Positions 1-34,615 of a stretch of DNA of 36,473 nt are shown here, in pieces. The translations under genes were made by a program, and so were the position numbers. The stretch comes from Lentilactobacillus parafarraginis DSM 18390 = JCM 14109 (GTDB lineage Bacteria; Bacillota; Bacilli; Lactobacillales; Lactobacillaceae), in the NCBI RefSeq assembly GCF_001435895.1, contig NZ_AZFZ01000012.1, positions 1-36,473 on the forward strand, in the 5' to 3' direction. The notes under the pieces were generated by a model, which worked only from the letters and a program-made list of their open reading frames with translations, made no database searches and was not told the origin of the DNA. The first letter of the stretch is position 1; every line of letters begins with the position of its first letter.

Positions 1-208
1 CTGAAATAAAGTTTTCAGACGGACCCTAATTAAAATATATCTTTTAACGCCTCTTCCAAAAATAAATTACAATTAATTTTTATTTGCGCTTCACGAAGCA
101 ATTAATCAAAAACTCAATAATATAATAAATCCAGTGGAAGTAAGTTTATAGAAAATATATTCTGACGTCCACTAGATTCTTTATGATGAGCAGTCTATTG
201 TCATTCTG

Positions 209-8203: not shown

Positions 8204-9088
8204 CTATTTCTCCAAATACTTATCCTGCAGCTTCGTCAAATCACTCTGAGTCAATCCAAGCCCCTTGGTTAAGAAGCCCTTCATTGACCCGTAGTGTTTT
8301 TCAGCCTGCTTGTAGGCTTCGTCCAAGTATGCTTTTTCAACGATTAGCCCATAATAATTCTTCTTAATTGTGGCCTGACTGGCGCCCTTCTTCTTGAGAG
8401 CGGCCAAGGCCTGGTCATTAGTCGTTTTGCGGTATTTATTAGATAACAGATAGTCTTTATAAATGGTTTGCTTGCTGACGCCAAGCGCGGTCATAATCAG
8501 GGCCGTGCCAAATCCGGCGCGATCCTTGCCGGCACTGCAATGCCATAAGACGGCCTTGTTGCTTGGCGTGGTCAACAATTCATGGAATAGAACCTTGTAA
8601 GCATGACGGCCCTGGGTGGAGTCGACAAAGTACTTATAATAATCGATCATCCCCGTTTGACCATTCGCAATTTTGTCATTCTGTTTGCTTTCAGCGTCGG
8701 AAACCACCGGATTCTTGACATACTTGACGCCGGCAATCTTTTTATCCGGAGCTTCCTTCATTTCTGCGGGAGTCCTGAGGTCAACGTCAACGCCTAAATG
8801 GTGCTGCTTAACCAAAACGGCTTCATCGTGAGCGGTTAAAGTGTTCAACTTCGCCGATCGAATCAGCATGTTCGGCTTAATCACCTTTCCCGATTCCGTG
8901 TGGTAGCCGCCCAGATCACGGACGTTGACGGCGCCCTGCAGCTTAATCTGTGAACCGGCAACCGGCGTAGCAGCCTTTACCTTGGTAGTTGCCGCGCTGG
9001 CAACCGGCGTAACCGCACTGGCGGCGATTGGCGTTCCCACCGCTAACAAACTGAGTGCAACAGCGAATAACGTAACTTGCTTTTTCAA
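8204..9088 (-). CDS. Secreted tyrosine-phosphatase-like protein
   Basis: A protein of about 294 residues with a Sec signal peptide (MKKQVTLFAVALSLLAVG, cleavage near the Ala-rich stretch) and a tyrosine/serine phosphatase domain of the Y_phosphatase3 type. The domain opens with NVRDLGGYHTESG and holds the catalytic loop HCSAGKDRAGFG, which fits HCxxGxxR with Cys and Arg present. I chose a TTG start at 9088 because GGAGGAGAG lies 4-12 bases before it and the protein then begins as a normal signal peptide; the upstream ATG codons at 9130 and 9103 would put the ribosome site inside the gene. Relatives act as phosphotyrosine or phosphoinositide phosphatases, and some secreted ones from pathogens act in host cells. 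Its role here is unknown. It appears to be a single-gene unit. Confidence 0.87.
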   Translation of the reverse strand: MKKQVTLFAVALSLLAVGTPIAASAVTPVASAATTKVKAATPVAGSQIKLQGAVNVRDLGGYHTESGKVIKPNMLIRSAKLNTLTAHDEAVLVKQHHLGVDVDLRTPAEMKEAPDKKIAGVKYVKNPVVSDAESKQNDKIANGQTGMIDYYKYFVDSTQGRHAYKVLFHELLTTPSNKAVLWHCSAGKDRAGFGTALIMTALGVSKQTIYKDYLLSNKYRKTTNDQALAALKKKGASQATIKKNYYGLIVEKAYLDEAYKQAEKHYGSMKGFLTKGLGLTQSDLTKLQDKYLEK

Positions 9089-9401
9089 GATTCTCTCCTC
9101 CATACCCTTTTTATGATACGAATTCATCATAGTTGATTAACGTAAAAACCGGGTAATAGTGCCGTAAATGTTGTGTATATTTCTGCTGGATCGGATTGGA
9201 CGCCATCAAAACACGTCAAATGAGTCAAAATATACATGACCAATCCACTTGAGATATCACTTTCACCATTAGTCTCACCATATTTTCTAGGGCTCACACC
9301 ACTTATTTTAACGACATCCCCAACGATTGGGGAACTGTGGCTTTTTCACTGCGAATTTTCATTTTGTAGGCAAATAGTTTAGCTCTCAAATACGACTATT
9401 A

Positions 9402-9407
9402 TATAAT
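9402..9407 (+). promoter_or_regulatory. -10 of the SDR gene promoter; notes on the 9089-9450 gap
   Basis: TATAAT, 44 bases before the SDR start codon, with only a weak -35 (TTTAGC near 9378). The rest of the gap holds no gene that I can see. It contains a short hairpin, TCCCC/GGGGA at 9317-9333, followed by CTTTTTC at 9351, which may be a weak terminator, and the untranslated leader of the phosphatase gene. Confidence 0.5.
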
Positions 9408-9450
9408 AACTTCGTAAACCGTAACCCACTACCCATTAGGAGGAACTATC

Positions 9451-10185
9451 ATGGATAGGTTAAAGGACAAAGTCGCCATTATTACCGGCGCATCCCAAGG
9501 CATGGGTGCCAGCCACGCAAAATTGTTTGTTTCGGAAGGTGCCAAAGTGGCCATCACCGATATTAACGAAGAAAAGGGAAATCAAGTCGCTGCAGAATTA
9601 GGAAACGGGACAATCTTTATCAAGCAGGACGTTTCCAGTGAAAGCGATTGGCAAAACGTGGTTCACACAACGGTCGATCACTTTGGCAAGCTGGATATCC
9701 TGGTAAATAATGCCGGTATCAGTATCAATAAATCTCTGGACGACATGAGTGTTGATGACTACCTCAAAATTTTCAAAATCAACCAGTTATCCGTTTTCCT
9801 GGGAACCAAGTATGCCGCCCCAGCCCTTCGCAAGAACGGTTCCGGCAGTATCGTTAACATCTCTTCAATGAACGGACTGGTTGGCGGGGCAGTTGGCTAC
9901 ACCGACACTAAATTTGCGGTTCGAGGATTGACGAAGGCCGTTGCCTTACAGCTGGCCAAGGACAACATCCGCGTTAACTCAGTTCATCCCGGGGTAATTG
10001 CAACGCCGATGATCCTTCAGGGCGACAGCAAGGCCGTTATCGAAGAATTTGCGAAGAACATTCCTCTTCAGCGGGTTGCCGAACCAAGCGAAGTTTCCAA
10101 AACCGTTTTATTCCTGGCGTCGGATGATTCAAGTTACTCAACCGGTTCAGAATTCATTATCGATGGCGGGTTAACCGCTCAATAA
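9451..10185 (+). CDS. Short-chain dehydrogenase/reductase, NAD-type
   Basis: A 244-residue classical SDR. The cofactor motif is TGASQGMG (residues 13-20), beta-strand 2 ends in VAITDIN, where the Asp predicts NAD(H) rather than NADP(H), the NNAG motif is VNNAGIS, and the catalytic residues are Ser in VNISSMNG and Tyr/Lys in YTDTK. The C-terminus (SEFIIDGGLTAQ) is typical. Close family members are hydroxysteroid dehydrogenase-like or secondary alcohol dehydrogenases and 3-oxoacyl reductases of lactobacilli; the substrate cannot be told. AGGAGGA precedes the ATG. The gene stands alone between a promoter and a terminator. Confidence 0.9.
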   Translation: MDRLKDKVAIITGASQGMGASHAKLFVSEGAKVAITDINEEKGNQVAAELGNGTIFIKQDVSSESDWQNVVHTTVDHFGKLDILVNNAGISINKSLDDMSVDDYLKIFKINQLSVFLGTKYAAPALRKNGSGSIVNISSMNGLVGGAVGYTDTKFAVRGLTKAVALQLAKDNIRVNSVHPGVIATPMILQGDSKAVIEEFAKNIPLQRVAEPSEVSKTVLFLASDDSSYSTGSEFIIDGGLTAQ

Positions 10186-25016: not shown

Positions 25017-25050
25017 TGATATAATTACTGTGAATACATCGTGAATACAT
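25017..25050 (+). promoter_or_regulatory. mazEF promoter with direct-repeat operator
   Basis: TGATATAAT (25017-25025) is an extended -10 without an evident -35. Just downstream the 10-base word GTGAATACAT occurs twice (25030-25039 and 25041-25050), one helical turn apart, over the expected start of transcription. That is where a MazE-type antitoxin would be expected to bind for autoregulation. Confidence 0.6.
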
Positions 25051-25063
25051 GGAGGTGTTCCCC

Positions 25064-25276
25064 TTGAAAGTTAGAGAACAGGGTAATTCATTAGTTGTGA
25101 CGGTTCCAAAGAAATTTGGGATCAAATCAGGAACCGAAGTTGTCGCGGTTAAGGGCAAGGGAAACTCATTCTCATATGTCCCAAAATTGGCAAATCCGTT
25201 TACTGACCCAACCATTCACTTTGGCCATGACCAAGAAGCGTTTCCTGATGATTCGACTGGGCGTGAATCGCTGTGA
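25064..25276 (+). CDS. mazE: MazE-type antitoxin
   Basis: A 70-residue antitoxin with an AbrB/MazE swapped-hairpin DNA-binding domain: MKVREQGNSLVVTVPKKFG, then KSGTEVVAVKGKG. The C-terminal part is acidic (DQEAFPDDSTGRESL), as usual for the toxin-binding tail. The start is a TTG at 25064, six bases after GGAGGTG; the ATG at 25049 would place this ribosome site inside the gene. It ends in a GTGA overlap with the toxin gene. Confidence 0.88.
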   Translation: MKVREQGNSLVVTVPKKFGIKSGTEVVAVKGKGNSFSYVPKLANPFTDPTIHFGHDQEAFPDDSTGRESL

Positions 25277-25656
25277 GCAGGGATTCGTATCGGGGCTATA
25301 CCCCTGAACAGGGCGATATCGTGTATGTGACCTTCGATCCACAATCCGGTCGGGAAATTAAAAAGCGCCGCCCCGCGTTAGTCGTAAGCGCAACCCCGTA
25401 TAATCGGGCGACCGGCTTTGTCCAAATCTGTCCAATTATAAGCACCATTCGCCATCGACCAGGATTCTTTACACTGACTGATCAGAAAGCCATCAGTGGT
25501 CAGGTTAATGCCATTCAACTCCGATCGGTTGATTTCCTTTCTCCTCATAGAAATATCGTTAAAGTCGAAGCAATCGATCCCAGAACCTTTGGTGAAATCG
25601 CCCAGTTCATCAGATTTATCTTTGACTTTGACCAAATCCTCGACTTCGGCGATTAA
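25273..25656 (+). CDS. mazF: MazF/PemK-type mRNA interferase toxin
   Basis: A 127-residue toxin of the CcdB/PemK-like fold: GDIVYVTFDPQSGREIKKRRP at the start (read as GDIVYVTFDPQSG and KKRRPALVVS), with CPIISTIRHRPGFF and SGQVNAIQLRSVDF, matching the conserved Arg and QxR-type elements of MazF. It uses a GTG start inside the antitoxin stop (GTGA overlap), so it is made only with the antitoxin. Family members cut mRNA at short sequences; the site is unknown here. A strong terminator follows. Confidence 0.9.
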   Translation: MSRDSYRGYTPEQGDIVYVTFDPQSGREIKKRRPALVVSATPYNRATGFVQICPIISTIRHRPGFFTLTDQKAISGQVNAIQLRSVDFLSPHRNIVKVEAIDPRTFGEIAQFIRFIFDFDQILDFGD

Positions 25657-27108: not shown

Positions 27109-27182
27109 TAATTAAGCTATGATCCTTTTGTGAAGAGATGCTTCCTGTCGCGTAATGGTCAAAAAAGGTTAAGGTGATCGTT

Positions 27183-28766
27183 ATGAAAGCCATTATTCAG
27201 CGAAAGAACTTTTTGTTTTGGGCCTCAATTGTTTTTGCGGGGATTTTTTCGATTTGGGCCGTCGTCAGCCCCACCGGAATGACCGGGACGCTTTGGAATT
27301 GGCTTGGCCTTTACAACCGGACCTTTAGCTGGTTTACCATGCCAATGCCGGTGATTCTGCTGCTGATTTGTCTGTATCTGGCCTTCGGAAAATTTGGCAA
27401 GATTAAACTGGGCGGCGCCGACGACGAGCCAGAAATGAGCACGTTTGCCTGGATTGGCACCCTGTTTACTGCCGGCATTGGTATCGGCATCGTCAACTTT
27501 GGGGTTGCCGAACCCCTGGTCCACTACCTGCAGTCACCCGTCGGAATTGCCGGGGGTGTTTCCCCAGCCCAAGCAGCCGAAAACGGCATGAAATACAGCA
27601 TGTTTATCTGGGGATTGCCGGCATGGGCCATCTACACCATGGCCGGATTAGTGATTGGCTACTTTGCATACTATAAAGGAAAGAAGTTTCTGCCGGGCGA
27701 ACCAATTGCCGCCGGGTTCTCTGATAAGGCGTGGGCCCCAAGCGTTGCCGTTCTTGCCAACATTGTCGCGGCTGGCGCGGCCGCTCTGACAATTGCCGCC
27801 CACATTGCGATTGGTATTTTTCAAATCCAAAACGCCGTGCATTCGGTCAGCGGGTTCGATATTTCTTCAGCGACCAGTTCGATTGCGTTATTAATTATCA
27901 TGTTCTTTATTTATACGTTTGCCGCCATTCTGCCGATTCAAAAGGGGATGGCATCCCTTGGCAAAATCAACACCATTGTCGCGGTGATTTTGATGATCTA
28001 TGTCTTCATGATTACCAACTCGACGATGATTATGCGACTGGTGACTGAAAACGTCCGCCACGCCTTTTTGGACGTCTTTCCAGTCGCCTTCACCACCATC
28101 CCGTTTTCTGATCAGACCTGGTTTGGTTCGTGGCCCAACACAATCATGATCTGGTGGTTCTCCTGGACGCCGTTCTTGGGGATCTTTATCGCCCGAATTT
28201 CCAAAGGCCGCACCATTCGCCAAATCGTGACCATGTCCATTTTGGTACCGACGTTCTTCCTGATCTTTTGGTTCAGCGTTTTCGCCGGCAACGGCTTCTG
28301 GAACACGTTCTTTGGTGATGGTAAAATCATTCATTTTATTGCTAATAACCCGGAGAACGTCTACCTGTCGTTCATCATGGTGCTCAAGGAGCTGCCGGGA
28401 TTCCAAGTTACCGGGCCAATCTTCCTGTTACTGGTGGTGATCTTTTTGGCGACCGCCACAACGTCGGGCATGATTTCGTTAAGTATCATTACCAGCAACG
28501 GCCCGGAAAACGCCCCGAAGACCCGGGTAATTTTGTGGTCAGTCCTGACCACGATGATTGCCTTTTCCAACATCGCCACCGGGACTTTGGACGGCGTCAA
28601 AGCTGTCGGCGTCATCATCGGGATTCCGTTTATGCTGTTTGTCCTGTTATCCATTTCCGGCATGTACCGGCAGATGACGCTTGACTACAACCACAATCTC
28701 CTGGTAGCCGCTGAAAAGAATCAGCAACTGATTGACCGCGAACACGGAAAGAAGGCGTCATCATGA
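27183..28766 (+). CDS. BCCT-family transporter (betaine/carnitine/choline type)
   Basis: A 527-residue membrane protein with twelve predicted helices of the betaine-carnitine-choline transporter family. Visible family blocks are LFTAGIGIGIVNFGVAEP (glycine-rich helix), GLPAWAIYTMAGLVIGYF, and WWFSWTPFLGIFIARISK with GRTIRQ, the conserved cytoplasmic loop. The ATG at 27183 has AAGGTGA seven bases upstream. The stop overlaps the next start as ATGA. It is the first gene of a three-gene operon with a tiny membrane protein and a carnitine-acyltransferase-like enzyme, which points to carnitine or a choline-like quaternary amine as substrate. The C-terminal tail is short, without a clear osmosensing extension. 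Confidence 0.92.
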   Translation: MKAIIQRKNFLFWASIVFAGIFSIWAVVSPTGMTGTLWNWLGLYNRTFSWFTMPMPVILLLICLYLAFGKFGKIKLGGADDEPEMSTFAWIGTLFTAGIGIGIVNFGVAEPLVHYLQSPVGIAGGVSPAQAAENGMKYSMFIWGLPAWAIYTMAGLVIGYFAYYKGKKFLPGEPIAAGFSDKAWAPSVAVLANIVAAGAAALTIAAHIAIGIFQIQNAVHSVSGFDISSATSSIALLIIMFFIYTFAAILPIQKGMASLGKINTIVAVILMIYVFMITNSTMIMRLVTENVRHAFLDVFPVAFTTIPFSDQTWFGSWPNTIMIWWFSWTPFLGIFIARISKGRTIRQIVTMSILVPTFFLIFWFSVFAGNGFWNTFFGDGKIIHFIANNPENVYLSFIMVLKELPGFQVTGPIFLLLVVIFLATATTSGMISLSIITSNGPENAPKTRVILWSVLTTMIAFSNIATGTLDGVKAVGVIIGIPFMLFVLLSISGMYRQMTLDYNHNLLVAAEKNQQLIDREHGKKASS

Positions 28767-28939
28767 TTCTCATGTTCTTAACATCCAAATTCGTCCCCAA
28801 CGAACATTTTCCGTTGGACAAAGCCCTTGCCGGCCACGATATCGTGACCAACTTACTGACGTCGCTTGTCATTATCGCGTTTATTGCATTGATTGCCTGG
28901 ATCGTGTACGAGGCATTCGATCAAAAAAAGGAGGAGTGA
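28763..28939 (+). CDS. 58-residue single-pass membrane protein coupled to the BCCT gene
   Basis: An intact small gene whose ATG overlaps the transporter stop (ATGA) and whose stop is followed five bases later by the acyltransferase start. It reads MILMFLTSKFVPNEHF, then PLDKALAGHDIVTNLL, a hydrophobic helix TSLVIIAFIALIAWIVY, and an acidic/basic tail AFDQKKEE. The helix spans about residues 33-49. I recognise no named family. Position and size resemble small accessory subunits of other secondary transporters (for example MetS beside MetP), so a BCCT helper subunit or an adaptor that holds the acyltransferase at the membrane are both possible; neither is shown. Its last codons contain the GGAGG ribosome site of the next gene. 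Confidence 0.8.
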   Translation: MILMFLTSKFVPNEHFPLDKALAGHDIVTNLLTSLVIIAFIALIAWIVYEAFDQKKEE

Positions 28940-28944
28940 TCGTC

Positions 28945-30714
28945 ATGGTAAATGAACGTTATACCACTGACCTCCAGCCAAAATTACCGTCATTACCGGT
29001 CCCGGAGCTTGCCCAAACCCTGACCAGCTTGGAAATTTGGGCAACCCCACTGCTTAATCAGCAGACAGCCGAAGATTTTTATCATTTGGTCAGACAATTT
29101 TCCCAAACGGACGGTCCAATCTTGCAGAAACGCCTGATCAGTTTAGCCCGGCAAACATCGGGCAGCTGGCTTGCCCCCATCTGGGAGGAAAGTTATTTAA
29201 CCAGCCGTCAGCCGCTGCAAAATTCCACCAACTTTGCCTTCACGGTTGATCCGGCCGTGATTCCCCCGGCGGCCAGCCAAAGCTACCTGGCCGCCCAAAT
29301 CATTGACCGCTTGACCGGCGCCTACCTGAGCTACGCCACGGGCAATCAACCATTGGAAACCTACCGCAATGGTAATTTGATGGACATGAGTTACTACCAA
29401 AACTTCTTCAAGGCCATGCGCTTGGCCCGACTTGGAAAGGACAGCTTTTATCAGGGCGATTCCGAAATAACCAACCAACAGGTGGCCATCATTTCCGGGC
29501 GCCAGTTGTATTTTGTGACCGTCACGGACGCGGACGGGCGCCAGTTGCCGGCCGAAAAGATCGCCGCGGATCTCACGGAAATTTTAACTCAACCGGCAAG
29601 CGATTCGCCATTTGTCGGTGAATTCACCGGTCTTCCCCGGGATCAGGCCGCTCAACAACTCACCGCCCTGCTAGAAGATGATCATAATCGCACGATCTGG
29701 CATGCCGTCAGTGACGCATTGTTCACGGTCAGCTTCGAAACGGCGCCCGCTGATCACAACTATCTTCGAGAAACGCTGCTGGGCGTCACCAACCGCTTTG
29801 TGGATAAGCCACTTCAAATCGTGATCTATTCCGATTCCCACGTCGGCTTCGCCATTGAACACAGCCGTGTGGACGGCGTGCCGGCACTGAACCTCATTCA
29901 ACACGCCCTCACCGGCCTAGGCGATCACTCGCGCTGGTCGATGAAAACGACGCCGCCAAAACCAGTCTCGTTTCACTTAACGCCGGAACTGACCAGTCAA
30001 TTGAAACTTGCCGCTGATCAAAATCAACGGGTTGCCGGCCAAATAACCATTACAACCGCCGCCTTCGATCACTTCGGCAAGAACCAGATCAAACAATTTG
30101 GCGTTAGTCCCGACGCTTTCTTCCACATCGCCCTCGCCCTGGCAATGTATCGGCTGACCGGCACCTGGCAAAGTATCTACGAACCGGTCTCCATGCGCAA
30201 CTTCTACCAGGGCCGCACCGAAGACGCCCGCAGCGTGAGCCTGGAAAAGAAACGCTTCATTGCCGCCTTTGAGCATCAGGAAGACCCGCGGGATTTGAAG
30301 CAACTATTTGAGACAGCCGCCAAAGCGCACACCACCCGCATTCGCCTCGCCCAACAGGGATTCGGCGTTGAGCGCCACTTGTTGGGGCTGGAAACGGTAT
30401 TCAACCAGAATCAAAATGGCCTGAAGATCGCCAAGACGTTTTTCGCTTCCCCCCAACTTGCAAAGCTGCGAACCGATTTTCTGTCAACGACATCGATTCC
30501 ATTTCCAGTCATTCAGGGACTGAGCTTTGCCCCGACTTCGCCCAAAGGATACGGCGTTTACTACGGCATTTTAAAGGATGATATTCGCCTAGCGGTTTCC
30601 AGCTGGCAGGGAGCCGAATTTTCCCCGAATCAGTGGCTGGTGGCCATCGGCAAGGCCCTTGACGATTTGCATGAAATGGTATTGAGCTGGCCGAAGAATC
30701 GCAACCGACTGTGA
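28945..30714 (+). CDS. Choline/carnitine O-acyltransferase family protein
   Basis: A 589-residue protein of the carnitine acyltransferase family, which is mainly eukaryotic and uncommon in bacteria. The catalytic His306 is in AIEHSRVDG (family ExHxxxDG). The segment YEPVSMRNFYQGRTEDARSVS, read as YEPVSMRNFYQGR and TEDARSVS from residue 412, matches the family YExxSxRxFxxGRTxxxRSxS. LSTTSIPFP (513-521) and KGYGVYYG correspond to the STS and DGYGVCY blocks. These enzymes move acyl groups between CoA and carnitine or choline. GGAGG lies before the ATG at 28945; a longer frame from 28732 is a shadow over the two upstream genes. No signal peptide or membrane segment is seen. With the BCCT transporter upstream, import and acylation or deacylation of carnitine is the simplest model. 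Confidence 0.9.
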   Translation: MVNERYTTDLQPKLPSLPVPELAQTLTSLEIWATPLLNQQTAEDFYHLVRQFSQTDGPILQKRLISLARQTSGSWLAPIWEESYLTSRQPLQNSTNFAFTVDPAVIPPAASQSYLAAQIIDRLTGAYLSYATGNQPLETYRNGNLMDMSYYQNFFKAMRLARLGKDSFYQGDSEITNQQVAIISGRQLYFVTVTDADGRQLPAEKIAADLTEILTQPASDSPFVGEFTGLPRDQAAQQLTALLEDDHNRTIWHAVSDALFTVSFETAPADHNYLRETLLGVTNRFVDKPLQIVIYSDSHVGFAIEHSRVDGVPALNLIQHALTGLGDHSRWSMKTTPPKPVSFHLTPELTSQLKLAADQNQRVAGQITITTAAFDHFGKNQIKQFGVSPDAFFHIALALAMYRLTGTWQSIYEPVSMRNFYQGRTEDARSVSLEKKRFIAAFEHQEDPRDLKQLFETAAKAHTTRIRLAQQGFGVERHLLGLETVFNQNQNGLKIAKTFFASPQLAKLRTDFLSTTSIPFPVIQGLSFAPTSPKGYGVYYGILKDDIRLAVSSWQGAEFSPNQWLVAIGKALDDLHEMVLSWPKNRNRL

Positions 30715-30761
30715 CGCCACGCTTAATATAGTAATAACCGGCTGATGATTTCAGCTAATGA

Positions 30762-30799
30762 GGTGACGACAACTATCTAGATGTCGCCACCCCTTTTTT
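30762..30799 (+). terminator. Terminator of the BCCT-acyltransferase operon
   Basis: GGTGACGACA (30762-30771) pairs with TGTCGCCACC (30782-30791) with one mismatch, followed by CCTTTTTT. Confidence 0.9.
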
Positions 30800-30883
30800 G
30801 TGCTATCTTTAAGATGAATCAATCGTTGATCAATTGTGGTCATGCCATCGACTGCCATCTCTCACGAAAAGGGGTAATGACTC

Positions 30884-33664: not shown

Positions 33665-34615
33665 CTAATCCTGCTTGGCTTCATCAAGGTCAACGTCACC
33701 GCTGTGGCGCTGCCGATACGCGACCGGGCTTAACCATCCCAGCCGCTCCTTGATGCGGACATAATTATAGTAGTGTATGTAACGCTGAATCGCCAGCTTG
33801 AGTCTGGCAAAGCTGTGATAGACCCGGCCATAGTACATCTCGCGTTTCAAAATGCTGAAGAAATTCTCCATGATCGCGTTATCCAGACAGGTGCCTTTCC
33901 GTGACATGCTTTGAAAAATTCGTTCCTGCTTGAGCCGCTGGTGGTAGGCCGCCATTTGGTAAACCCATCCCTGATCGGAGTGAAAGGTCCGCCGAACCGG
34001 GCAGTCAGCGGTCACCTTCACGGCGTCGTTGAGTGCGGCCAAGATGGCCCCTTCACTGGGTTGTGAAGAGATCCGGTACGAAATAATTTCTCGATTATAC
34101 ATGTCTAAAAAGGCGTCCAGGTAAACGCCCTTGACCTGAAACTGGCCGTTGGGCAGCTTGACGACGTACTTGAGTTCGGTGGTATCCGTCGTGACTTTCT
34201 GATGACAAATGGCCGTACAAAACCGGCGGCGCAACCGGTTCTTACAAACAATCCCGACCTTGCCCTGATAGGAATGATAAGTCGTCGAATCCAAGTGAAT
34301 GGCCCGTTTGGCACATCCCTCAGCCTGAATATGAAGTTTGCGCATCAGGCGCTGAACGTGCTTTTTATTAATTAGGACCCCCTGATCACGCAGGGCAATC
34401 GTCACCCGCCGGTAGCCATAGTCCGGATTCTGACGATGAACGGCAAGAATCCGGTCCTCAAGGGCTTTATCAGCGTCAGGCCGGTGAAACCGTTTCTGCC
34501 AATACATATAGGTTGCCTTCGGAAATCGAAGGGCCTTTAAAATGTCAGTGAGAATGAACTTTCCGCGAAGGTCGTAGATGATCTGCGATATTTCCCGACG
34601 GCACAGAGCCGCCAC
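33665..34615 (-). CDS. IS3-family transposase, OrfB part
   Basis: A 316-residue DDE transposase of the IS3/IS150 type. The N-terminal HTH_21-like part (NPDYGYRRVTIALRDQGV) is followed by the integrase core with catalytic residues in VTTDTTELKYV (first Asp), FHSDQGWVYQ (second Asp) and NAIMENFFSILKRE (Glu). All three are present. The start is a GTG in a frame that opens a little upstream. A full OrfA with its own helix-turn-helix and frameshift window, normal for IS3 elements, is not seen in the 200 bases upstream; only MTQRFVQTELLGDW and a few further codons can be read. The element is probably partial and immobile by itself. It lies beside the trailer end of the CRISPR array. Confidence 0.88.
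   Translation of the reverse strand: MAALCRREISQIIYDLRGKFILTDILKALRFPKATYMYWQKRFHRPDADKALEDRILAVHRQNPDYGYRRVTIALRDQGVLINKKHVQRLMRKLHIQAEGCAKRAIHLDSTTYHSYQGKVGIVCKNRLRRRFCTAICHQKVTTDTTELKYVVKLPNGQFQVKGVYLDAFLDMYNREIISYRISSQPSEGAILAALNDAVKVTADCPVRRTFHSDQGWVYQMAAYHQRLKQERIFQSMSRKGTCLDNAIMENFFSILKREMYYGRVYHSFARLKLAIQRYIHYYNYVRIKERLGWLSPVAYRQRHSGDVDLDEAKQD

Follow-up and report, generated by a model that had tools for sequence, protein, structure and literature searches.

A rare, conserved three-gene operon of Lentilactobacillus parafarraginis that may join carnitine uptake to short-chain acyl transfer

We examined a 36,473-nucleotide stretch of the Lentilactobacillus parafarraginis genome (the window, from an assembly of 3.08 Mb in 254 contigs) in which three consecutive genes on the forward strand, spanning 27183-30714, encode a BCCT-family transporter of 527 residues, a membrane protein of 58 residues and a carnitine-type O-acyltransferase of 589 residues. 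The transporter gene (27183..28766) runs from the ATG at 27183 to the TGA at 28764-28766, with an in-frame GTG at 27174 as a possible alternative start further upstream. Its stop codon overlaps the start of the small gene in an ATGA (28763..28939; ATG at 28763, TGA at 28937-28939), and the acyltransferase gene (28945..30714) opens with an ATG five bases past the stop of the small gene. A likely ribosome-binding site for this third gene, AAGGAGG at 28928..28934 as read from the sequence, falls within the 3'-terminal part of the small gene. Gene order, overlap and five-base gap all agree with a preliminary description of this DNA, which had also placed a single terminator at the end of the unit. 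The terminator (30762..30799, + strand) is plausible because an imperfect hairpin (30762-30791) is followed by a run of T (30794-30799), and the 51 bases at 30750-30800 (-13.3 kcal/mol, z -3.5) beat 199 of 200 shuffled versions in folding; a consensus terminator scan, however, reported none on the + strand of the window.

The acyltransferase matches PF00755 with 413 bits (cut-off 22.3) over positions 1-559 of 574, so the family assignment first proposed stands on a full-length match; NCBIfam lists no family for it. Aligned to human CrAT, with which it shares 27% identity, its His306, GRTEDARS (423-430) and S514-T515-T516 fall on His343, GRTDTIRS and STS, such that the catalytic histidine and the GRTxxxRS block are recognisable as described, whereas the block taken to be STS-like reads STT. 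The remaining site residues of the window enzyme are D310, K379, K383, D390, Y412, E413, T425 and R477. Using CrAT numbering from here on unless window numbering is stated, K379, K383, Y412, T425 and R477 are equivalent to K419, K423, Y452, T465 and R518, and D390 with E413 forms the Asp430/Glu453 pair. Tyr452, Thr465 and Arg518 we take to be residues of the carnitine site, the latter two presumably separating carnitine from choline. Across the six trios of transporter, small protein and enzyme that we found in Lactobacillaceae, H343, K419, K423, D430, Y452, E453, T465, R518, S552 and T553 are all kept (6/6, with the L. parakefiri enzyme represented by its first piece), and Asp replaces E347 in every case. 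According to PMC11852590, H343 of CrAT acts as the base, K419 and K423 bind the 3'-phosphate of CoA, and D430 and E453 lie in the pantetheine site.

An AlphaFold2 model of the window enzyme (mean pLDDT 86.6, from an alignment of 12 sequences) predicts the two-domain CrAT fold. In a Foldseek search with this model the top entry by E-value is human CrAT (1nm8; E 7e-40, TM-scores 0.88/0.87, with CrAT matches reaching 0.90), though the TM-scores of COT, CPT2 and ChAT are about equal and the fold alone therefore does not pick among them. The likeness of the trio enzyme to CrAT (PDB 1nm8/1ndb) thus extends over the full-length fold, the catalytic histidine, the CoA lysines, Asp430/Glu453, Tyr452, Thr465 and Arg518. 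It differs in the low identity, in Asn or Asp at 467, in STT for STS and in Leu or Phe for Met564, as well as in being bacterial and encoded in an operon with a transporter. Position 564, which is Gly in CPT2, presumably contributes to the fit of the acyl group, and Leu or Phe there would suit short acyl groups.

The transporter is a full-length match to PF02028 (363 bits; nothing above cut-off in NCBIfam) and the sole PF02028 match in its genome. Its nearest solved relatives in the PDB - the choline transporter BetT, the trimethylamine transporter TmaT and BetP - are all distant, and in a search of the class Bacilli (E up to 1e-60, some candidates per genome scored) matches occurred in 158/348 genomes, with identity of at most 34% outside the window among the matches listed. 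The Trp and Tyr residues of transmembrane helices 4 and 8, which we take to be the set named the aromatic box, align by eye to those of BetP and are kept, as befits a member of the family that also includes BetT, TmaT, Aci01347 and CaiT. The BetP Na1 threonines T246 and T250 are replaced by Ala200 and Ile204, while at Na2 (T467/S468) Thr424 is kept and the neighbouring residue is Ala425; DddT likewise lacks the Na1 threonines of BetP and uses another site (PMC13270143). The motif in transmembrane helix 3 (TM3) is GIGIG (98-102), ending in Gly (G102) as in BetP, and the C-terminus is short and hydrophilic. Asp occupies the last motif position in the solved choline transporter, and the Ala or Asp of choline-specific carriers is absent here. 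PMC6562126 gives GMGIG as the usual form in glycine betaine carriers and GIGIA/D as that in choline-specific ones. The same source, however, describes a Gly-motif carrier, Aci01347, that transports choline as well as carnitine, so that GIGIG favours a zwitterion as a lean and not as proof.

These features bear on whether the substrate is carnitine or choline, which the preliminary description had left undivided. Human ChAT has Val at 465 and Asn at 518, where CrAT, COT and CPT2 have Thr and Arg; the Val465/Asn518 pair is absent from the window enzyme (T425 and R477 in its own numbering), and Thr and Arg occur in 6/6 trios. Positions 465 and 518 together with the BCCT glycine motif favour carnitine, or a similar zwitterion, over choline, and we therefore rank a choline acetyltransferase below a carnitine enzyme. 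In the choline version BCCT would import choline and the enzyme would be a bacterial choline acetyltransferase making acetylcholine, a product reported for L. plantarum since 1947 (see PMC12096481 and PMC12181349). Family, fold and catalytic block are indeed shared with ChAT (PDB 2fy2), position 467 is Asn as in ChAT in 5/6 trios, and Aci01347 provides the precedent of a choline-carrying Gly-motif transporter. Set against this are Arg518 and Thr465, the Gly at the end of the BCCT motif, and the restriction of PF00755 to two of the 40 Lactobacillaceae genera sampled, Lentilactobacillus and Secundilactobacillus, for which reason the family cannot account for acetylcholine in L. plantarum; nor does the trio gene explain acetylcholine production in lactobacilli generally. 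We consider the choline version improbable. The main text of PMC12181349 never mentions 'choline acetyltransferase', and the word 'acetyltransferase' is absent from PMC12096481.

The 58-residue protein has one predicted transmembrane helix (best window 31-49), flanked by a conserved VPxxxFPxDKxL before it and AF(D/E)xK(K/R)(E/D) after it, and matches no Pfam or NCBIfam family above cut-off. We compared proportions of nonsynonymous and synonymous differences (pN and pS) in place of dN/dS because dS is saturated for most pairs. The small reading frame occupies the same place in 6/6 trios and has pN below pS in 15/15 trio pairs (pN 0.07-0.38, pS 0.49-0.84); it is therefore more than a chance frame, and the gene previously called is real. 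Since it overlaps the transporter gene, its product is probably a partner of the transporter.

The operon exists as described and is rare, and its sequence is conserved. PF00755 occurs in 15/397 Lactobacillaceae genomes, in 4/398 genomes of a phylum sample and 8/348 of a class sample (the window's own genome counted in each), and in 0/14 control genomes. Orthologues of the trio BCCT (E up to 1e-100) are confined to 6/395 Lactobacillaceae genomes - 4/24 Lentilactobacillus (the window genome, L. raoultii, L. parakefiri and L. fungorum) and 2/15 Secundilactobacillus (S. folii and S. similis) - and the small gene and the enzyme accompany BCCT in all six, so the trio does recur in other members of the family, as had been anticipated. 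For all three genes pN is well below pS, and the frames are open in the window, L. raoultii and S. folii copies.

Enzyme sequence is more widespread in Secundilactobacillus than the carrier, being present in 11/15 genomes of which nine lack the trio BCCT. These nine comprise seven near-full-length enzymes, including that of S. angelensis with a stop near its end, one split gene (genome G162) and one C-terminal remnant (G020). The seven genes lie at L023:8486-10240, L024:429-2189, L025:8131-9909, L026:8160-9917, L027:8098-9822, L028:8763-10523 and L029:7961-9757. Their products keep Asp430 (7/7) and Glu453 (6/7) and usually His343 (6/7), while the lysines for the 3'-phosphate and the carnitine site are mostly gone: Thr465 remains in 4/7, Lys423 and Arg518 in 1/7 each, and Tyr452 and Lys419 in 0/7. 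By comparison, the other 14 bacterial sequences have Tyr452 and Arg518 in 14/14 and Lys or Arg at 423 in 14/14. Lys419 was rejected as a stand-alone mark of lost function, since Lys is missing there in 5/5 copies from other Bacilli also, and the argument is carried by 423, 452 and 518. Among the seven, pN (0.20-0.36) is well below pS (0.73-0.85, near saturation), which indicates that the proteins are still under purifying selection; with selection persisting and the carnitine site mostly lost, these enzymes look repurposed. In the speculative shuttle reading set out below, such a pattern would fit a donor without a 3'-phosphate, for example acyl-carrier protein, together with another acceptor. 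The series offers natural enzymes that have shed the carnitine site while under selection. In the tree the carrier-less enzymes form a branch nested within Secundilactobacillus that leaves out S. folii and S. similis, with support of only 87/87 (91/89 in the other tree). The BCCT state needs to change once, and we therefore rejected counting the losses in this genus as independent. A grouping of S. folii with S. similis is not rejected (p-AU 0.209), so their branching is not firm.

Outside Lactobacillaceae we read eight stretches, covering 3/3 genomes from the phylum sample and five of seven from the class sample. Identity to the window enzyme is 29-32% for the five other Bacilli copies and 27-28% for the three Clostridia copies. 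We lean, weakly, against recent acquisition from an animal: the Bacilli copies are slightly nearer than human CrAT (29-32% vs 27%), the Clostridia copies are no nearer, and the enzyme tree, with one animal row and long branches, has a deep root that is not firm. All eight enzymes (L078-L082 and L048-L050) resemble that of the trio in Tyr452, Thr465, Arg518 and Lys or Arg at 423, but the five from Bacilli have Ser, Ala or Thr at 419, and none of the loci has an ATGA-linked BCCT and small gene. A BCCT of another subfamily, similar to DddT and CaiT, lies near the PF00755 gene in one Bacilli genome, G957 (L079:5885-7390 and 8647-10128), with a TetR gene between the two and an S15-type hydrolase gene after them, and in the clostridial genome G748 the enzyme gene is followed by one for an acetyl-CoA hydrolase/transferase. 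Another Bacilli genome (G1083, L075-L077) carries an intact PF00755 copy together with a second one that is fragmented and interrupted by stops.

On balance we lean towards the view that the operon joins carnitine uptake to short-chain O-acyl transfer. BCCT would import L-carnitine, a close zwitterion or its acyl ester, with the small membrane protein binding and assisting it, and the cytoplasmic enzyme, using His306 (window numbering) as general base, would catalyse the reversible exchange of a short acyl group, acetyl being the likeliest, between CoA and the hydroxyl of carnitine. In a heterofermenter acyl-carnitine would then store or supply acetyl-CoA and free CoA, with a link to acetyl phosphate via phosphotransacetylase; the genome carries one gene of the PTA/PTB family (PF01515). 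Besides the residues and motif discussed above, the scheme is supported by the constant company of BCCT and enzyme in the six genomes, by the loss of most Tyr452, Arg518 and Lys423 residues from the enzymes that lack the BCCT, and by the different BCCT near the PF00755 gene of G957. Gene order, families, predicted fold, conserved residues and the joint conservation of the three genes are observed; substrate, chain length, direction and the role of the small protein are what we infer from sequence in this scheme.

Several observations weigh against it. Besides Asn467 (Asp in the window enzyme) and the choline transport by Aci01347, the transporter does not belong with the CaiT-type antiporters, having a TM3 glycine motif and scoring closer to BetT (E 1e-55) than to CaiT (E 4e-19). 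No BCCT stands beside the enzyme in 7/8 stretches outside Lactobacillaceae, by tblastn with two BCCT queries, a count limited by two of the three clostridial contigs ending less than 500 bases from the enzyme. Between the window and the two Secundilactobacillus trios the enzymes share 42-45% identity and the BCCT proteins 76-77%, the enzyme being the less conserved of the two. As loss of the BCCT counts as a single event on the tree, the parallel loss of residues in the carrier-less enzymes counts once, not seven times. Lesions affect 3/6 trios - in L. fungorum the BCCT gene has an in-frame stop, in L. parakefiri the enzyme gene has a late frameshift, and in S. similis both genes are frameshifted - each resting on one assembly, such that sequencing error is possible, and the enzyme is missing from 20/24 Lentilactobacillus genomes. 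The unit is therefore dispensable, and loss in close relatives, named beforehand as something that would speak against the operon, has in part occurred, with six trios retained.

These lesions and the patchy spread also raise the question of whether the trio is a decaying or mobile remnant, functionless now in most holders. The four Lentilactobacillus trio sites mostly differ in their flanking genes, and two of them have HicB/CcdA-like antitoxin genes close by. As a weak sign, the GC content of the BCCT and enzyme genes exceeds that of the locus by 2 to 7 points at four related loci (L018-L021). The remnant explanation is nevertheless very improbable, given a pN clearly lower than pS for each of the three genes, open frames in three copies and catalytic-site residues kept in 6/6. 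Foreign origin by composition was rejected: apart from this weak excess, GC content and GC content at third codon positions of all three window genes fall within the range of the window's open reading frames. No match to the trio was found by tblastn in 72,556 plasmid records. A comparison of one flanking gene, whose identity in relatives does not exceed 54%, established no empty site.

The nearest rival to reversible carnitine acylation uses the same parts in one fixed direction: BCCT would import acyl-carnitines of animal or plant origin and the enzyme would pass the acyl group to CoA, yielding acetyl-CoA as an electron sink (ethanol) or ATP via acetyl phosphate, while carnitine exits or stays as an osmolyte. 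CrAT works both ways (PMC11852590), no carnitine-degrading enzyme is apparent among the seven nearby window genes scanned, and the single PTA/PTB-family gene is compatible with this route. We regard such scavenging as doubtful, however, as nothing in the sequence sets the direction and acceptance of acyl-carnitine by BCCT is presumed. Simple osmolyte use, in which BCCT gathers carnitine as a compatible solute and the enzyme merely modifies the pool, appears quite improbable. Carnitine is reportedly a compatible solute of L. plantarum, yet such a role would leave no need for the enzyme. A further osmolyte-type gene is present in the genome, with a whole OpuAC match of 203 bits, in addition to an OpuAC match split in two and interrupted by stops and a weak match within the window. 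The BCCT tail, moreover, is short, a trait linked in another carrier to missing osmotic activation (PMC6562126).

An extension of the favoured scheme that we think unlikely, though worth stating, is a shuttle in which BCCT, tuned by its small partner, would exchange external acyl-carnitine for internal carnitine, or the reverse, and the enzyme would link the exchange to CoA, the carrier-less Secundilactobacillus enzyme having turned to other use. Acyl transfer between carnitine and CoA is known mainly from animal cells, where the mitochondrial shuttle combines a carnitine/acylcarnitine carrier with CrAT and CPT2. By analogy, a lactic acid bacterium may import or export acyl groups as carnitine esters in a manner convergent with the mitochondrial system: the likeness lies in the way a carnitine acyltransferase may be paired with a carrier for carnitine, and the difference in an unrelated carrier family and in a coupling that we infer for the trio.

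The preliminary description knew of no such route in lactobacilli, and we too found no description of a carnitine acyltransferase gene in this group at the title and abstract level of the literature covered, most subscription journals lying outside that coverage; literature on bacterial carnitine acyltransferases likewise gave no lactobacillus gene at that level. If our reading is correct, some lactobacilli handle carnitine esters, which would alter how carnitine and short-chain acyl flow in fermented materials is interpreted. Because it is compact, and its frames are open in the window genome as well as in L. raoultii and S. folii, the trio lends itself to genetic tests of how a transporter and an enzyme are coupled when a small membrane protein is part of the unit.

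The surroundings of the trio were surveyed by profile scan. Its neighbours are a D-Ala-D-Ala carboxypeptidase gene on the opposite strand and, past the terminator, a CHAD-domain gene and an esterase gene; no Rfam family reaches gathering score within the window. About 3 kb downstream of the trio lies an integrase-core transposase-like gene (33665-34615, - strand; rve, HTH_21). Two overlapping small genes at 25049-25656 (+ strand), the second PemK/MazF-like (PF02452, 67 bits) and the first with no Pfam match, look like a type II toxin-antitoxin pair. A conserved gene for a protein of 211-248 residues (L020:12081-12731 and the corresponding place elsewhere) points away from the trio or enzyme gene in 9/11 Secundilactobacillus loci; the two members scanned have no Pfam match. 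The enzyme gene in this genus also has genes for a small matrixin-like metallopeptidase beside it (L020:7476-8129, L023:10318-12235, L028:5599-8664 and L030:581-7826; the PF00413 scan covered three members, from L020 and L023), numbering six in L030 and three in L028.

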